Assembly (NCBI GenBank): GCA_029571985.1
Contig: JAKQVC010000114.1
Location: 1 to 63,957 of the forward strand
From: Bacteroidota bacterium
GTDB taxonomy: Bacteria; Bacteroidota; Bacteroidia; Chitinophagales; BACL12
Reading direction: 5' to 3'
DNA length: 63,957 bases
Part shown: positions 1 to 32,335 of the stretch, one piece after another
How the letters are laid out: every line of letters begins with the position of its first letter
Numbering within the stretch: position 1 is the stretch's first letter
Notes under the pieces: generated by a model
Told to the model about the DNA's origin: nothing
Databases searched by the model: none
Seen by the model: only the letters and a program-made list of their open reading frames with translations
Position numbers and translations under genes: made by a program

Positions 1-34
1 CCTGGGGCTGGGAATGCATTTTGTATTTTGCGCA

Positions 35-193
35 CACCTGAACACTTGAACACATGAACACCTGAACACATTTTTGCATTCCACGTCCGCACGTCCGTAC
101 CTCCGCACGTCCGCACACCATTCGCCGCCAGGCGAACCACACTTTCACATTTGCCTTTCACGTCGACACGTCGGAACGTCGACACGTCGACAC
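35..193 (+). repeat. Three 35-bp octamer-repeat units (CAC-N5 x4 + CAC)
   Basis: Three separate 35-bp units lie at 35-69, 82-116 and 159-193. Each is four 8-bp repeats plus a final CAC, giving five CAC-like triplets exactly 8 bp apart. Unit 1 uses CACNTGAA octamers, unit 2 CACGTCCG octamers (one reads TACCTCCG), and unit 3 CACGTCGA/G octamers (one begins AAC). Unit 2 is preceded by GCATTC, and unit 3 is followed by TTTC; the same flanks surround the units of the tandem array at 9952-10166. The block lies between the window edge and the 3' end of the TonB-type gene. No reading frame or terminator is evident here. Confidence 0.85.
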
Positions 194-228
194 TTTCTTT
201 TTGGGACTTTTAAGTTTTTTTTGTGAGG

Positions 229-8348: not shown

Positions 8349-9197
8349 TTAATTTAATAAATCAGTGATTACAAAGCTGCCAAACACGAGAGAGGCGATG
8401 CCGTTTGCCGTAAAAAAAGCTCTGTTAACGCGACTTAAATCATCTGGTTTTACAATGAGGTGTTGATACACTAATGCGGCTGTAAACAAACCAAACCCTA
8501 TCCAGTACAACATACCAAATTCGATATAAGAACCGGCGTAATACAGTAGAATAAAAGTATTTACATGCACAATGATACTCACGAGGAGGGCATTCGATTT
8601 ACCCAATTTTGCCGGAAGCGAATAGAGATGATGGGCCTTGTCAAAATCTTCATCCTGCAATGCATAAATAATATCAAATCCCGCTACCCAGGTAAAAACA
8701 GCGAGCGAAAAAATGATAGGCAACACTTGAAATTGTTCCGTCACAGCAATATATGCCCCGATAGGCGCCAAGGACAAACCGATGCCCAATACAAAATGGC
8801 ATAACCAGGTAAAGCGTTTTGTGAGACTGTATCCTAAAATCACCAGCAAAGCAACCGGCGCCAGATAGAGACATAACATGTTGAGCATGCCTGCCGAAAT
8901 AATGAAGGCAATGGCATTAAATACCACATACCCCAGAGCTGTTTTCTTACTGATTTTTCCGGACGGTATTTCGCGGGAGGCTGTGCGCACATTATCCTTA
9001 TCAATATCGGCATCAATATACCGGTTGAAGGCCATGGCTGCACTGCGGGCAAATACCATGCATAACAGCACAAACACCAGATCAACCCACTCAAACGAAG
9101 CCCCCGGCTGCGTCACCCCCAAAAAAAACCCAATCAACGCAAAAGGCAGCGCAAAAATGGTGTGACTGAAGGTGATGAGGGAAAAGTAGCTTTTCAT
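8349..9197 (-). CDS. UbiA-family prenyltransferase (quinone biosynthesis)
   Basis: The 282-residue polytopic membrane enzyme has the two Asp-rich motifs of the UbiA superfamily: NRYIDADIDKDN at about 58-69 and DEDFDKAHH at about 180-188, where the prenyl diphosphate-magnesium complex binds. About eight or nine hydrophobic segments are visible. The NRYID/REIPSG context resembles 4-hydroxybenzoate-type prenyltransferases. In Bacteroidota that use the futalosine route to menaquinone, this type is called MqnP. Which aromatic acceptor applies cannot be decided here, as no other quinone gene is in view. It is the first gene of the operon with ruvX and def. Confidence 0.87.
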   Translation of the reverse strand: MKSYFSLITFSHTIFALPFALIGFFLGVTQPGASFEWVDLVFVLLCMVFARSAAMAFNRYIDADIDKDNVRTASREIPSGKISKKTALGYVVFNAIAFIISAGMLNMLCLYLAPVALLVILGYSLTKRFTWLCHFVLGIGLSLAPIGAYIAVTEQFQVLPIIFSLAVFTWVAGFDIIYALQDEDFDKAHHLYSLPAKLGKSNALLVSIIVHVNTFILLYYAGSYIEFGMLYWIGFGLFTAALVYQHLIVKPDDLSRVNRAFFTANGIASLVFGSFVITDLLN

Positions 9198-9235
9198 GAA
9201 CAGTGTAAAATTAGCATAAATACAGTAAAAGGCAG

Positions 9236-9270
9236 GTGTCGACGTGTCGACGTGCCGACGTGTCGACGTG
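9236..9270 (-). repeat. Single 35-bp octamer-repeat unit, inverted relative to the array at 9952
   Basis: Read on the minus strand this is CACGTCGA, CACGTCGG, CACGTCGA, CACGTCGA, CAC: exactly four octamers plus CAC, 35 bp, with no mismatch in any CAC. It stands 234 bp upstream of the four-helix-bundle gene, in the opposite orientation to the five-unit array downstream of that gene. The octamer order (A, G, A, A) matches the unit at 159-193. The rest of 9198-9503 is AT-rich with no gene or complete promoter that I can see. Confidence 0.9.
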
Positions 9271-9503
9271 AAGCGTAATTGGTGGCGGATGCACTGAAGT
9301 GCGTGTGTTTGGGTTCTTGCCTAATAACGTTGAATTTGTTCGGCAGTTTTTATCAACATAATAACCTAACTCTATGGTTTTATTGTGAGATTTTATCAAA
9401 CGCATTGATAATCGGTTAATTAATAGTGGGGAACACAGTGAAATCAACAATCAAACAAGTGAATACGGATTCCAGTTTCTGTTTCAATGTCTAAATTCGA
9501 AAC

Positions 9504-9869
9504 ATGGCATTAATTACGAATTTTGAAGAGCTTGAATGTTGGAAGTCAGCACGTTCCATCTGCAACGTAATGTTAGAGGTTACATCACGATCTGAATTTC
9601 ATTATGCGTTCCGACTCAAGGACCAAATTGCTGGTGCTGCAATTTCAGTAATGAATAATATTGCTGAAGGCTTCACCAGAAAAAGTGATAAAGAATTTAT
9701 GCGGTTTCTGGACATTGCGCTGGCATCAGCATCAGAATTAAAAAGCATGACCTATTTACTTCTGGACAGGGGACTCATTAAAAAACACGAATTTGATTCA
9801 ATCATAAAATCAATTGACCAGAATGTCGCCCTCATCAGAGGCCTGCTTAAATATCTTCAATCAAAATAA
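9504..9869 (+). CDS. Four-helix-bundle protein (23S rRNA intervening-sequence protein family)
   Basis: The 121-residue soluble protein fits the four-helix-bundle family first known from intervening sequences of 23S rRNA genes. Family signatures are FEELECWKSARSICNVM at the N-terminus, FRLKDQIAGAAISVMNNIAE in the second helix, GFTRKSDKEFMRFLDIALAS in the third and ELKSMTYLLLDRGLI after it. Structurally known relatives, including the accessory protein of diversity-generating retroelements, assemble as homopentamers and carry a basic surface. The gene stands alone here, not inside an rRNA gene and with no reverse transcriptase nearby. Inverted copies of the octamer repeat flank it. A role in binding those repeats is inference. 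The frame begins after a non-coding 300-bp gap without a clear promoter. Confidence 0.9.
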   Translation: MALITNFEELECWKSARSICNVMLEVTSRSEFHYAFRLKDQIAGAAISVMNNIAEGFTRKSDKEFMRFLDIALASASELKSMTYLLLDRGLIKKHEFDSIIKSIDQNVALIRGLLKYLQSK

Positions 9870-9951
9870 ATCAAACTTCAAAATCCCAAAATCCCATCAC
9901 CTCAAATCATCGAACCCTAACAATATTCAACATCACCACCTATCGCCATTC

Positions 9952-10166
9952 CACGTCGTCACATCGAAATGTCGGCACGTCGACACTTTCCCGCATTCAA
10001 CGTTGACACATCGGCACGTCAACACTTTCCCGCATTCCACGTCGACACGTCGACACGTCGGCACGTCGACACTTTCCCGCATTCAACGTCGACACATCGA
10101 CACGTCGGCACGTCGACACTTTCCCGCATTCCACGTCGACACGTCGACACGTCGGCACGTCGACAC
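9952..10166 (+). repeat. Five-unit 47-bp tandem array of nested octamer repeats
   Basis: Five units start at 9952, 9999, 10038, 10085 and 10132. The unit is 47 bp: four octamers of CACGTCGA/G type plus CAC (35 bp), then a 12-bp spacer TTTCCCGCATTC. Unit 2 is 39 bp because exactly one octamer is missing. Units 2 and 4 begin with AAC instead of CAC, and unit 1 has one AAT. GTCGAC and ACGT make each octamer partly self-complementary. The array fills the gap between the four-helix-bundle gene and the end of polX, which converge. Frames that cross it encode only THR-rich repeats and are not genes. Confidence 0.92.
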
Positions 10167-10178
10167 CAACTCCTATCA

Positions 10179-11861
10179 TTATCGCCGAAGCCAAACTCTA
10201 AACTCCTCCAACGACTTCGCATTCAAAGTCATTGCCCTTCTCAGGCCGCCTTTCCTAGCAGAAACAACTCCCCAATGAATATCATTAATGCCATCAACAC
10301 TATGCGCATCAGGATTTATGCTGATTAAGACCCCTTTTTCCATGGCGTAGGGAATCCAGGTGTAGTCGATGTCGAGGCGGTAGGGATTGGCGTTGATTTC
10401 TATGACGACTTTATATTCGGCACAGGCATCGATAATTTTTTTGTGGTGCACTGGATAGCCGGGGCGACTTAATATTAATCTGCCTGTCATATGTCCGAGG
10501 ATGCGGGTGGATGGATGGGCGATGGCTTTTAAGAGGCGTTCCGTTGCTTTTTCGATATCCATTTTTAAATTCTGATGCACACTGGTGATGACTAAATCGA
10601 AAGAAGACAAAACATCATCCGCATAATCCAGACTACCATCATTTAATATATCACATTCAATACTTTTGAAAATATGAAAATCTGTAAATGTGGCATTGAG
10701 TGCCTCAATTTCTTTATGCTGCGCGATGATTTGTGCTTCTGTTAATCCGCCGGCATAAAAGGCAGATTTACTGTGGTCGCTCATCACCAGATACTGATAT
10801 CCTTTTTCCATACAGGCCGCAGCCATTTCGGCGATGGTATTTTTGCCGTCACTCCAGGTGCTGTGATTATGTACAACGCCGCGAATATCTGCATCCGTAA
10901 TCAGGGCTGTTGCGGGTGATTGCACAGCCTCCTGCGATTGCATGAAAATGGATTTTGTATCCACTTCACTAAATGTTTCGCGCATTTCAGGCGAAACGTA
11001 GGGCAAACCTGCAGAGGTATAGATGTCTGCTTCTGTAGTTGCATGCACATCTGCACCCGCTGCTATCAGCATGTCTACGTGTGCTTCGCTGCCTGTTTTA
11101 ACGAATAACTGATGTGTATAATCGGCATCCTCCACTAAATAAATAGCAAACTGTAAATCATGCGCAGTTTTACCAACGATTAATTCATCAGTTGCCGACT
11201 CAATTATAAATTCAGGTATCGCCTGCACATGTGGCAATATATTTGCTGTAATCGGCGCAATCATTTCCATGCGTTCGATGACATTATTGGTACGACGCAA
11301 ATCGCCTACAAATTGAATGCGCTGATTACCACTCAATTGAATGAGTTGCGCTAATAAATCATCACAATAGGCAGCCACGGTTGCGTAATGAAACTTACCG
11401 ATAGCATTTTGATAATATTCAATACTTTGAATAACAGCAGCCTGCGTTTTTTCGCCGAAGCCTTTTAATTTCGACAGGCGATTTTCGTAGCAGGCATATA
11501 ATAATTCACCTACGGTTTCAATACCCAGTTGCGTCCAGATATCGCGCACTTTTTTGCCACCGAGACCTTTTATATGCAGCATGTCGACAATACCCGGAGG
11601 GGTCTGCTGCAATAATGCATCCAACTGGGCAATATTGCCTGTTTCACGCAGTTCGATTATTTTGGCTGCAATACCTTTCCCGACTCCCGGTAATTTTTCG
11701 AGTACAGCCTCGTCTACAGTCATCACCTGTTCGCTCAGCCGGCCCAGCTGAAATGCCGCATTGGCATAACTTTTCGTTCTGAAATCCGACTCCCCATTCA
11801 CCTCCAACAAACCGGTGAGTAGCTTGAAATATTTTGAAACTTCTTTGTTTGATAATGCCAT
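10179..11861 (-). CDS. polX: PolX-type protein: PHP domain with degenerate family-X polymerase domain
   Basis: The order is a family-X N-terminal helix-hairpin-helix region (about 1-140; LEKLPGVGKGIAAKI at 55-69, HIKGLGGKKV at 96-105), a nucleotidyltransferase-like region (about 150-300) and a C-terminal PHP phosphoesterase domain (about 325-560). The PHP metal motifs are intact: HNHSTWSDG at 331-339, SDHSKSA at 361-367, TSVH at 427-430 and NPDAH at 516-520. The polymerase motif, normally GS-x-RR followed by GDIDxL, reads GDLRRTNNVIERMEMI (186-201), so the catalytic Asp pair is missing. The expected activity is therefore PHP-type 3'-5' exonuclease or AP-site processing in base excision repair, with DNA synthesis doubtful. 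The 560-residue length is normal. Confidence 0.9.
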   Translation of the reverse strand: MALSNKEVSKYFKLLTGLLEVNGESDFRTKSYANAAFQLGRLSEQVMTVDEAVLEKLPGVGKGIAAKIIELRETGNIAQLDALLQQTPPGIVDMLHIKGLGGKKVRDIWTQLGIETVGELLYACYENRLSKLKGFGEKTQAAVIQSIEYYQNAIGKFHYATVAAYCDDLLAQLIQLSGNQRIQFVGDLRRTNNVIERMEMIAPITANILPHVQAIPEFIIESATDELIVGKTAHDLQFAIYLVEDADYTHQLFVKTGSEAHVDMLIAAGADVHATTEADIYTSAGLPYVSPEMRETFSEVDTKSIFMQSQEAVQSPATALITDADIRGVVHNHSTWSDGKNTIAEMAAACMEKGYQYLVMSDHSKSAFYAGGLTEAQIIAQHKEIEALNATFTDFHIFKSIECDILNDGSLDYADDVLSSFDLVITSVHQNLKMDIEKATERLLKAIAHPSTRILGHMTGRLILSRPGYPVHHKKIIDACAEYKVVIEINANPYRLDIDYTWIPYAMEKGVLISINPDAHSVDGINDIHWGVVSARKGGLRRAMTLNAKSLEEFRVWLRR

Positions 11862-25542: not shown

Positions 25543-25631
25543 CCGGGAAGATGGGGAGACGGGAAGTTTTAATGCAGGAATGCAGGGGACATATCTATTT
25601 ATTCTTCATTCCTTATTCCTTATTCCTCATT
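25543..25631 (+). repeat. Composite phased array: 8-bp purine repeats then ATT-N4 x4 + ATT
   Basis: The left part has three octamers, CCGGGAAG, ATGGGGAG and ACGGGAAG (25543-25566), followed by AATGCAGGA and a degenerate copy. The right part, 25601-25631, has ATT at 25601, 25608, 25615, 25622 and 25629: five triplets exactly 7 bp apart, with CTTC/CCTT/CCTC between them. The array resembles that at 32251-32335 in order, spacing and the shared word AATGCAGGA. It lies just upstream of the tRNA-Leu promoter. Confidence 0.7.
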
Positions 25632-25653
25632 GCTTTTGCCTTTTAAACCCCAT

Positions 25654-32250: not shown

Positions 32251-32335
32251 CCGGTAAGACTGGAAGCCTGTAAGTTATTGTTGAGACAATGCAGAACGGT
32301 TTCCTTGTTCCTTTTTCCTCATTCCTTATTCCTCT
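32251..32335 (+). repeat. Composite phased array: 8-bp purine repeats then TTCCT heptamers x5
   Basis: Three octamers, CCGGTAAG, ACTGGAAG and CCTGTAAG (32251-32274), follow the word AATGCAGGA. From 32301 there are five heptamers, TTCCTTG, TTCCTTT, TTCCTCA, TTCCTTA and TTCCTCT, each starting TTCCT. The order and spacing match the array at 25543-25631. It lies between the divergent-side start of the GNAT gene and the dnaK terminator. Confidence 0.7.

Follow-up and report, generated by a model that had tools for sequence, protein, structure and literature searches.

What is a small gene of the 23S rRNA intervening-sequence-protein (IVP) family doing between inverted arrays of a short tandem repeat? 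The locus lies in the window analysed here, a stretch of 63,957 nt that forms contig C268 of a Bacteroidota genome (G000; 4.0 Mb in 282 contigs). No function has been established for the 23S intervening-sequence protein since the early 1990s, and mobility of the rRNA intervening sequences (IVSs) is still an open question (PMC4990558). A repeat element built around the gene of a putative ring protein bears on this 30-year-old question.

An IVP gene between inverted octamer arrays

A sequence-only reading of this stretch had placed a gene at 9504-9869, an array in minus orientation at 9236-9270 and five arrays in plus orientation downstream, and all of these were recovered. The features that the following analysis refers to are:

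9235-10167, no strand: IVP-array element, the whole insertion of ~0.93 kb, delimited by gap comparison with relatives
9504-9869, plus: IVP gene (23S_rRNA_IVP / four helix bundle protein), 121 aa, from PF05635, TIGR02436 and 2gsc matches
9235-9270, minus: left arm, an 8-bp array with five GTG triplets in 8-nt phase (GTGTCGAC/GTGCCGAC)
9952-9991, plus: right arm, array 1, degenerate (complementarity with the left arm 80%)
10000-10025, plus: right arm, array 2
10038-10072, plus: right arm, array 3, 35 bp, five CAC triplets
10086-10119, plus: right arm, array 4
10132-10167, plus: right arm, array 5, the outer end of the element
9984-9999, plus: first copy of the CACTTTCCCGCATTC linker between right-arm arrays, with others near 10024, 10071 and 10118
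34-196, plus: dispersed octamer arrays of three kinds (CACNTGAA, CACGTCCG, CACGTCGA), no IVP gene nearby
25595-25637, no strand: dispersed heptamer array of the GGAATGA family, related to the IVP unit GAGGAAA of the congener G001
32300-32334, no strand: dispersed heptamer array of the GGAATGA family

The five right-hand arrays fall within 9947-10166, have the unit CACGTCGA and mostly follow a 47-bp super-period. The left arm is 94% complementary over 36 nt to the last of them (10132-10167), and four in-phase CAC triplets are matched nine times in the window as compared to not once in 100 dinucleotide shuffles. The GAATGC motif is found 3' of many dispersed octamer arrays as well, and not in the window linkers alone.

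The family assignment of the encoded protein is firm, with 96.7 bits against PF05635 (curated cut-off 33.8) and 91.1 bits against TIGR02436 (cut-off 24). Of the solved structures, it matches one, 2gsc (XCC0516; E 1.9e-10), a homopentamer of four-helix bundles according to the part of PMC4990558 that cites Lin 2006. By analogy with this ring-forming relative, the window protein is probably pentameric, and it is probably non-catalytic. It had been called basic in type, which applies mildly, the net charge being +2 and the family median +3. No HUH/Y1 transposase was detected in the window element, where PF05635 is the sole profile match at E <= 0.001; the Y1 genes of G000 are located elsewhere.

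Occupied and empty sites

The left neighbour of the element (8349-9197, minus) is, as we judge from its sequence, a UbiA-type prenyltransferase, and the right neighbour (10179-11861, minus) is presumably a PolX/PHP protein. The element hence lies between ubiA- and polX-like genes and not inside a 23S rRNA gene, and there is no rRNA in the window. In G000, 981 bp separate the ubiA-like start (9197) from the polX stop (10179), whereas the two genes are adjacent in the congener G001 and in four genomes of the same family (G002-G005), with gaps of about 72, 43, 18, 53 and 136 bp, respectively. Since the gap is short in all five relatives, it was the G000 lineage that gained the block 9235-10167. 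Conversely, two IVP elements of G001 have no counterpart at the orthologous G000 sites (670 versus 104 bp, and 921 versus 169 bp). Occupied and empty orthologous sites, as expected of transposable elements in general, are both observed. The flanks are too diverged for a target-site duplication to be read at the element edges.

Array insertion sites are not the same in G000 and G001. At one intergenic site the two congeners carry different IVP elements (G000:C269:3707-4389 with GTAGTGR; G001:C74, L296:4874-5515 with GTATCAR), the proteins being roughly half-identical and the units differing on both arms; the site may have received two separate insertions, one element may have replaced another, or concerted change may have been very fast. 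Stop codons interrupt a few of the IVP genes (L129, L131, L216 and L221), as expected of decaying selfish elements.

Private units in a common architecture

The arrangement in the window generalises, though not the repeat itself: the other IVP genes of G000 have inverted arrays of other units. Three of the four IVP genes in this genome have clear inverted arrays, each of its own unit (GTGTCGAC, GTAGTGR and GTGAGTG, the latter two with period 7), and the fourth has a decayed inverted pair of GATTAGCC, with period 8. The sequence-only reading had proposed that phased CAC-N5 arrays accompany the family. This version fails: CAC-N5 occurs genome-wide, with 157 matches in G000, and lies near one of the four IVP genes there, the other three having no such array nearby, and it was therefore rejected as a general signature. 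A test for CAC-N5 enrichment near IVP genes would be negative in G000 although the association of IVP genes with arrays is real, the unit of 7 or 8 bp being private to each IVP. A contig scan with the exact CAC-N5 pattern was uninformative, returning mostly single matches in Actinomycetota and Pseudomonadota that are probably coding repeats.

In this order the IVP family is common, occurring in 35 of 41 genomes. A bracketing inverted repeat, called at a score of at least 14, surrounds 57 of 87 IVP loci from 29 genomes, and about one third of the loci lie below the score cut-off for a clear arm pair. When the left flank of one IVP locus was combined with the right flank of another, a repeat was called in 1.1% of 7,246 cross-genome pairs and in four of 236 pairs from the same genome. 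Control YbeY loci of the same genome set were never bracketed (0/28), and 14 of 829 G000 genes (1.7%), the IVPs included, were. The pattern was replicated in IMG/VR contigs, where of 13 non-redundant IVP loci about 10 were bracketed, by units that are new. Two of the IMG/VR loci (L383 and L384) have the IVP gene between arrays of a near-palindromic heptamer, ACGTTCA/ACGTTGA, of which further copies lie about 1.3 kb downstream. One G000 candidate for another gene between arrays (C50:39620) was discarded, being a pdxJ-like host gene, as named from its sequence, between separate elements.

The best-fit period of the arms is 7 at 37 and 8 at 15 of 58 loci, a peak that shuffles do not have, and the 1.1 Mb of G000 examined hold 71 arrays of period 7 and 53 of period 8, with at most eight at any other period except 14, a multiple of 7. 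Polarity is constant, the G-rich strand pointing inward at both ends at 52 of 56 loci (52:4), with strand set by the IVP reading frame, as in the mismatch counts below, and with L256 left out as a false IVP. Selection for an RNA stem was considered for these arms and gave no signal: mismatches between the arms have no bias towards wobble pairs (G.U 52 versus A.C 68), and a transcribed RNA stem is consequently not supported. As a general rule, PF05635 genes in this order lie between inverted arrays of 7- or 8-bp period, the unit of which differs from gene to gene.

Dispersal of cognate arrays

Matching arrays are also found away from the genes. Counting as dispersed any G000 array more than 800 bp from an IVP, the four IVP units of this genome match 24, 23, 21 and 10 dispersed arrays, compared to 2.4 on average for units of other genomes, the best-matching foreign units being those of the congener G001. 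The IVP units of G001 itself match 6, 6, 4, 3 and 0 of its dispersed arrays versus 0.4, and in G039 the in-sample match is weak (2 of 22 arrays).

In prospective searches, units were read off IVP flanks and then sought in the 41 whole genomes. The only genomes with AGARYCA were G036 and G024, precisely the two in which an IVP has this unit, and TACGANN gave 53 matches in its source genome G039 versus three elsewhere. GTATTAR was only partly specific, with three matches in G034, 15 in G023 and none in G008, though the latter has a similar unit. Reversed controls for AGARYCA and TACGANN were near zero. Neighbouring TACGANN pairs in G039 form inverted doublets of a single polarity, reminiscent of REPINs, and short pairs of inverted arrays that enclose no gene are frequent. 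The arrays in G000 are mostly intergenic, and in these genomes the IVP-array system would account for a large share of the repeats between genes. In 357 kb from five IVP-free genomes, arrays of period 7 or 8 are absent, as compared to 58-116 per Mb, a comparison that is confounded because most of these genomes also lack Y1 transposases. The densities of G000 and G001 are biased upward by the choice of contigs partly for their arrays.

Several array families have no known IVP partner, namely CACNTGAA, CACSTCCG and CACTGACC (window 34-196 and other G000 contigs). Their cognate IVPs may have been lost, be missing from the assembly, or reside in relatives, the last of which is suggested by matches of G001 units to orphan arrays of G000. 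Just inside the array, each family has a conserved sequence (GACAAATGCA with GTAGTGR, GTGGAATGCAAGTGT with the octamers and CCTGCCCTGAAGTGAA with GTGGTGA) that recurs at many G000 array ends, e.g. C50:39379, C67:14317 and C60:58553, suggesting larger composite repeats. A Y1_Tnp (RAYT-like) gene of G000 (L199; C181:47495-47839) lies between its own inverted REP-like AGCCCCAGGGGGGCGACACACCCACTAAC, which is also found directly 3' of several octamer arrays, so that the two repeat systems occur as mosaics.

Repeat period follows the protein

Mapped onto the protein tree of 59 IVPs, the repeat period changes seven times, compared to 15.0 times when shuffled (0/500 as low). The relation persists when periods are shuffled within genomes, with six changes observed versus a mean of 13.2 and a minimum of 9 (0/500). 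A clade of 11 IVPs from nine genomes (99% support) includes ten of period 8, and most of these genomes also have period-7 IVPs. Since the period tracks the protein tree, the data argue against the protein being a passenger. Unit sequence is related to protein similarity only loosely; most simply, spacing would be dictated by the protein while the letters drift, both ends changing together.

Octamer arrays in G000 have a sharp length peak at 35 bp (20 of 70), and in-phase triplet runs comprise five triplets in 29 cases, four in 19 and six in four, whereas shuffled sequence yields almost solely runs of three. No similarly sharp length was seen for the heptamer arrays. It is our conjecture that one triplet is bound per subunit of a pentamer, an arrangement comparable in kind to TRAP.

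Proposed mechanism and alternative explanations

Based on these observations, we propose that the IVP-array element is probably a selfish or recently selfish gene-plus-repeat unit resembling REP/RAYT, in which the protein acts on its own array. The element would consist of a gene for a non-catalytic four-helix bundle between inverted arms of about four to five tandem 7- or 8-bp units. The protein would act on its own unit, its geometry setting the spacing of 7 or 8 nt, and the unit sequence would be free to drift provided that both arms do so in step. Arms, single or as inverted doublets, would spread in trans through the genome, as REPs do with RAYTs. The protein may bind the array, possibly with one triplet or unit per pentamer subunit, and may enlist a host enzyme, be it a nuclease, a polymerase or a reverse transcriptase, by which the hairpin is copied or moved; that the IVP protein drives the mobilisation is what we infer. 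The rRNA intervening sequences would then be elements of the same kind, lodged in 23S rRNA helices. More tentatively, with the balance of our judgement somewhat against it, the elements could form a new class of mobile element, in which a non-catalytic pentameric ring protein reads its own five-unit array with one unit per subunit, in a geometry like that of TRAP on nucleic acid, and spreads it via host enzymes that it recruits, the classical rRNA IVSs being members that landed in 23S rRNA. The core idea already put forward from the window, that of a small bundle gene in an inverted cassette comparable to REP elements and their RAYT proteins, finds strong support in the empty sites, the enrichment over controls, the unit-specific dispersal and the link between period and protein tree; its CAC-N5 version has not survived.

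Alternatively, the IVP genes may merely have inserted into hairpin loops of MITE- or REPIN-like doublets that another enzyme moves, either a Y1/RAYT transposase or a reverse transcriptase. Residence in array loops would parallel that of rRNA IVSs in rRNA hairpin loops, inverted pairs without a gene exist in number, Y1_Tnp genes occur in 27 of the 41 genomes, and in G000 one such gene sits between its own REP-like repeats, of which the AGCCCC...GGGGCG motif also lies 3' of some octamer arrays. However, that RAYT repeat differs in sequence, arms match within an IVP locus and not across loci of one genome (the four of 236 mispairs above), and the period follows the IVP protein tree even within genomes. 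Furthermore, arm-flanked IVPs persist in the complete or near-complete genomes G002, G008 and G013, which are free of Y1_Tnp, and RAYT was for this reason rejected as the mobiliser. We regard insertion of a passenger gene as unlikely.

A regulatory role, with the IVP as a resident regulator that binds DNA or RNA, or as a nucleoid protein, and the arrays as its operators (autoregulatory at its own gene), spread by slippage and conversion under selection, would agree with the mostly intergenic position of the arrays and with their fixed quantum of five triplets, which suggests a binding site; heptamer arrays near start codons have been proposed as regulator sites in Beggiatoaceae (PMC4679880). 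Resident operators are difficult to reconcile with entire elements that are gained or lost between two species of one genus, with array insertion sites that differ between congeners, and with units that are not the same even in neighbouring species and at a common site, and we hold this explanation to be quite improbable. Ordinary tandem repeats that slippage produced beside a hypervariable gene, and that have no functional relation to it, deserve very little credence: slippage can create tandem repeats, and an unlinked heptamer repeat is known from other bacteria (PMC4679880), but it accounts neither for periods of 7 and 8 only, nor for matching inverted pairs around one gene family, nor for the constant polarity and a period that tracks the protein.

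With the selfish gene-plus-repeat unit as the favoured reading, the private repeat at both ends, its dispersal and the link between period and clade turn a protein of unknown function into a testable gene-plus-repeat system, one that names the DNA to be tested together with matched wrong-unit and wrong-spacing controls. In the open-access literature searched, we came across no previous account of IVP genes together with their cognate arrays. The protein family, the inverted repeats of IVSs and the Coxiella heptamers are already known, and it is the system as a whole that was not encountered there.

Comparison with known systems

Avd accessory proteins of diversity-generating retroelements are related four-helix-bundle pentamers. 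In a reading of the window locus by sequence, no reverse transcriptase or template/variable repeat (TR/VR) pair was seen, the flanks being read as ubiA- and polX-like. Foldback transposons such as Tetris and Galileo likewise have long terminal inverted repeats composed of internal tandem repeats. Unlike the IVP-array elements, they are eukaryotic and much larger, and their full-length copies encode a transposase.

Intergenic tandem arrays of 7-bp period are also shared with the TAACTGA arrays of Beggiatoaceae and the cyanobacterial STRRs (PMC4679880). TAACTGA heptamers occur in Beggiatoaceae, Cyanobacteria and five Bacteroidetes and were described without a gene partner (PMC4679880); in contrast to the present elements, neither an associated gene nor inverted bracketing was reported, and one main unit was studied.

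In REP/REPIN-RAYT systems, too, one gene is enclosed by a short repeat in inverted orientation, further copies of which are scattered over that genome, alone and as inverted doublets, and each RAYT gene has its specific repeat sequence (PMC2817692). By contrast, the IVP is a four-helix bundle without known nuclease and not an HUH/Y1 transposase, and its arms are direct tandem 7- or 8-mers and not palindromes headed by GTAG or GTGG. The IVP-array element would work like REP-RAYT, yet it is not a member of that class, having neither an HUH transposase nor a GTAG-headed palindrome.

Closest in protein are the rRNA IVSs with an S23p/IVP reading frame in Leptospira and Coxiella, as the protein family is common to both. 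These IVSs are of ~0.4-0.5 kb and have the reading frame in a loop between terminal inverted repeats, which are present here as well. They differ in residing inside 23S rRNA, from which they are cut out by RNase III, whereas the elements described here are intergenic, with units that differ per gene and matching arrays scattered genome-wide. The origin and function of IVSs are unclear, and their mobility has been hypothesised (PMC4990558). The Coxiella IVS has terminal inverted repeats and, just before the reading frame, three to four GACAGAT heptamers (PMC4990558), which by analogy would fit one element family in two settings.
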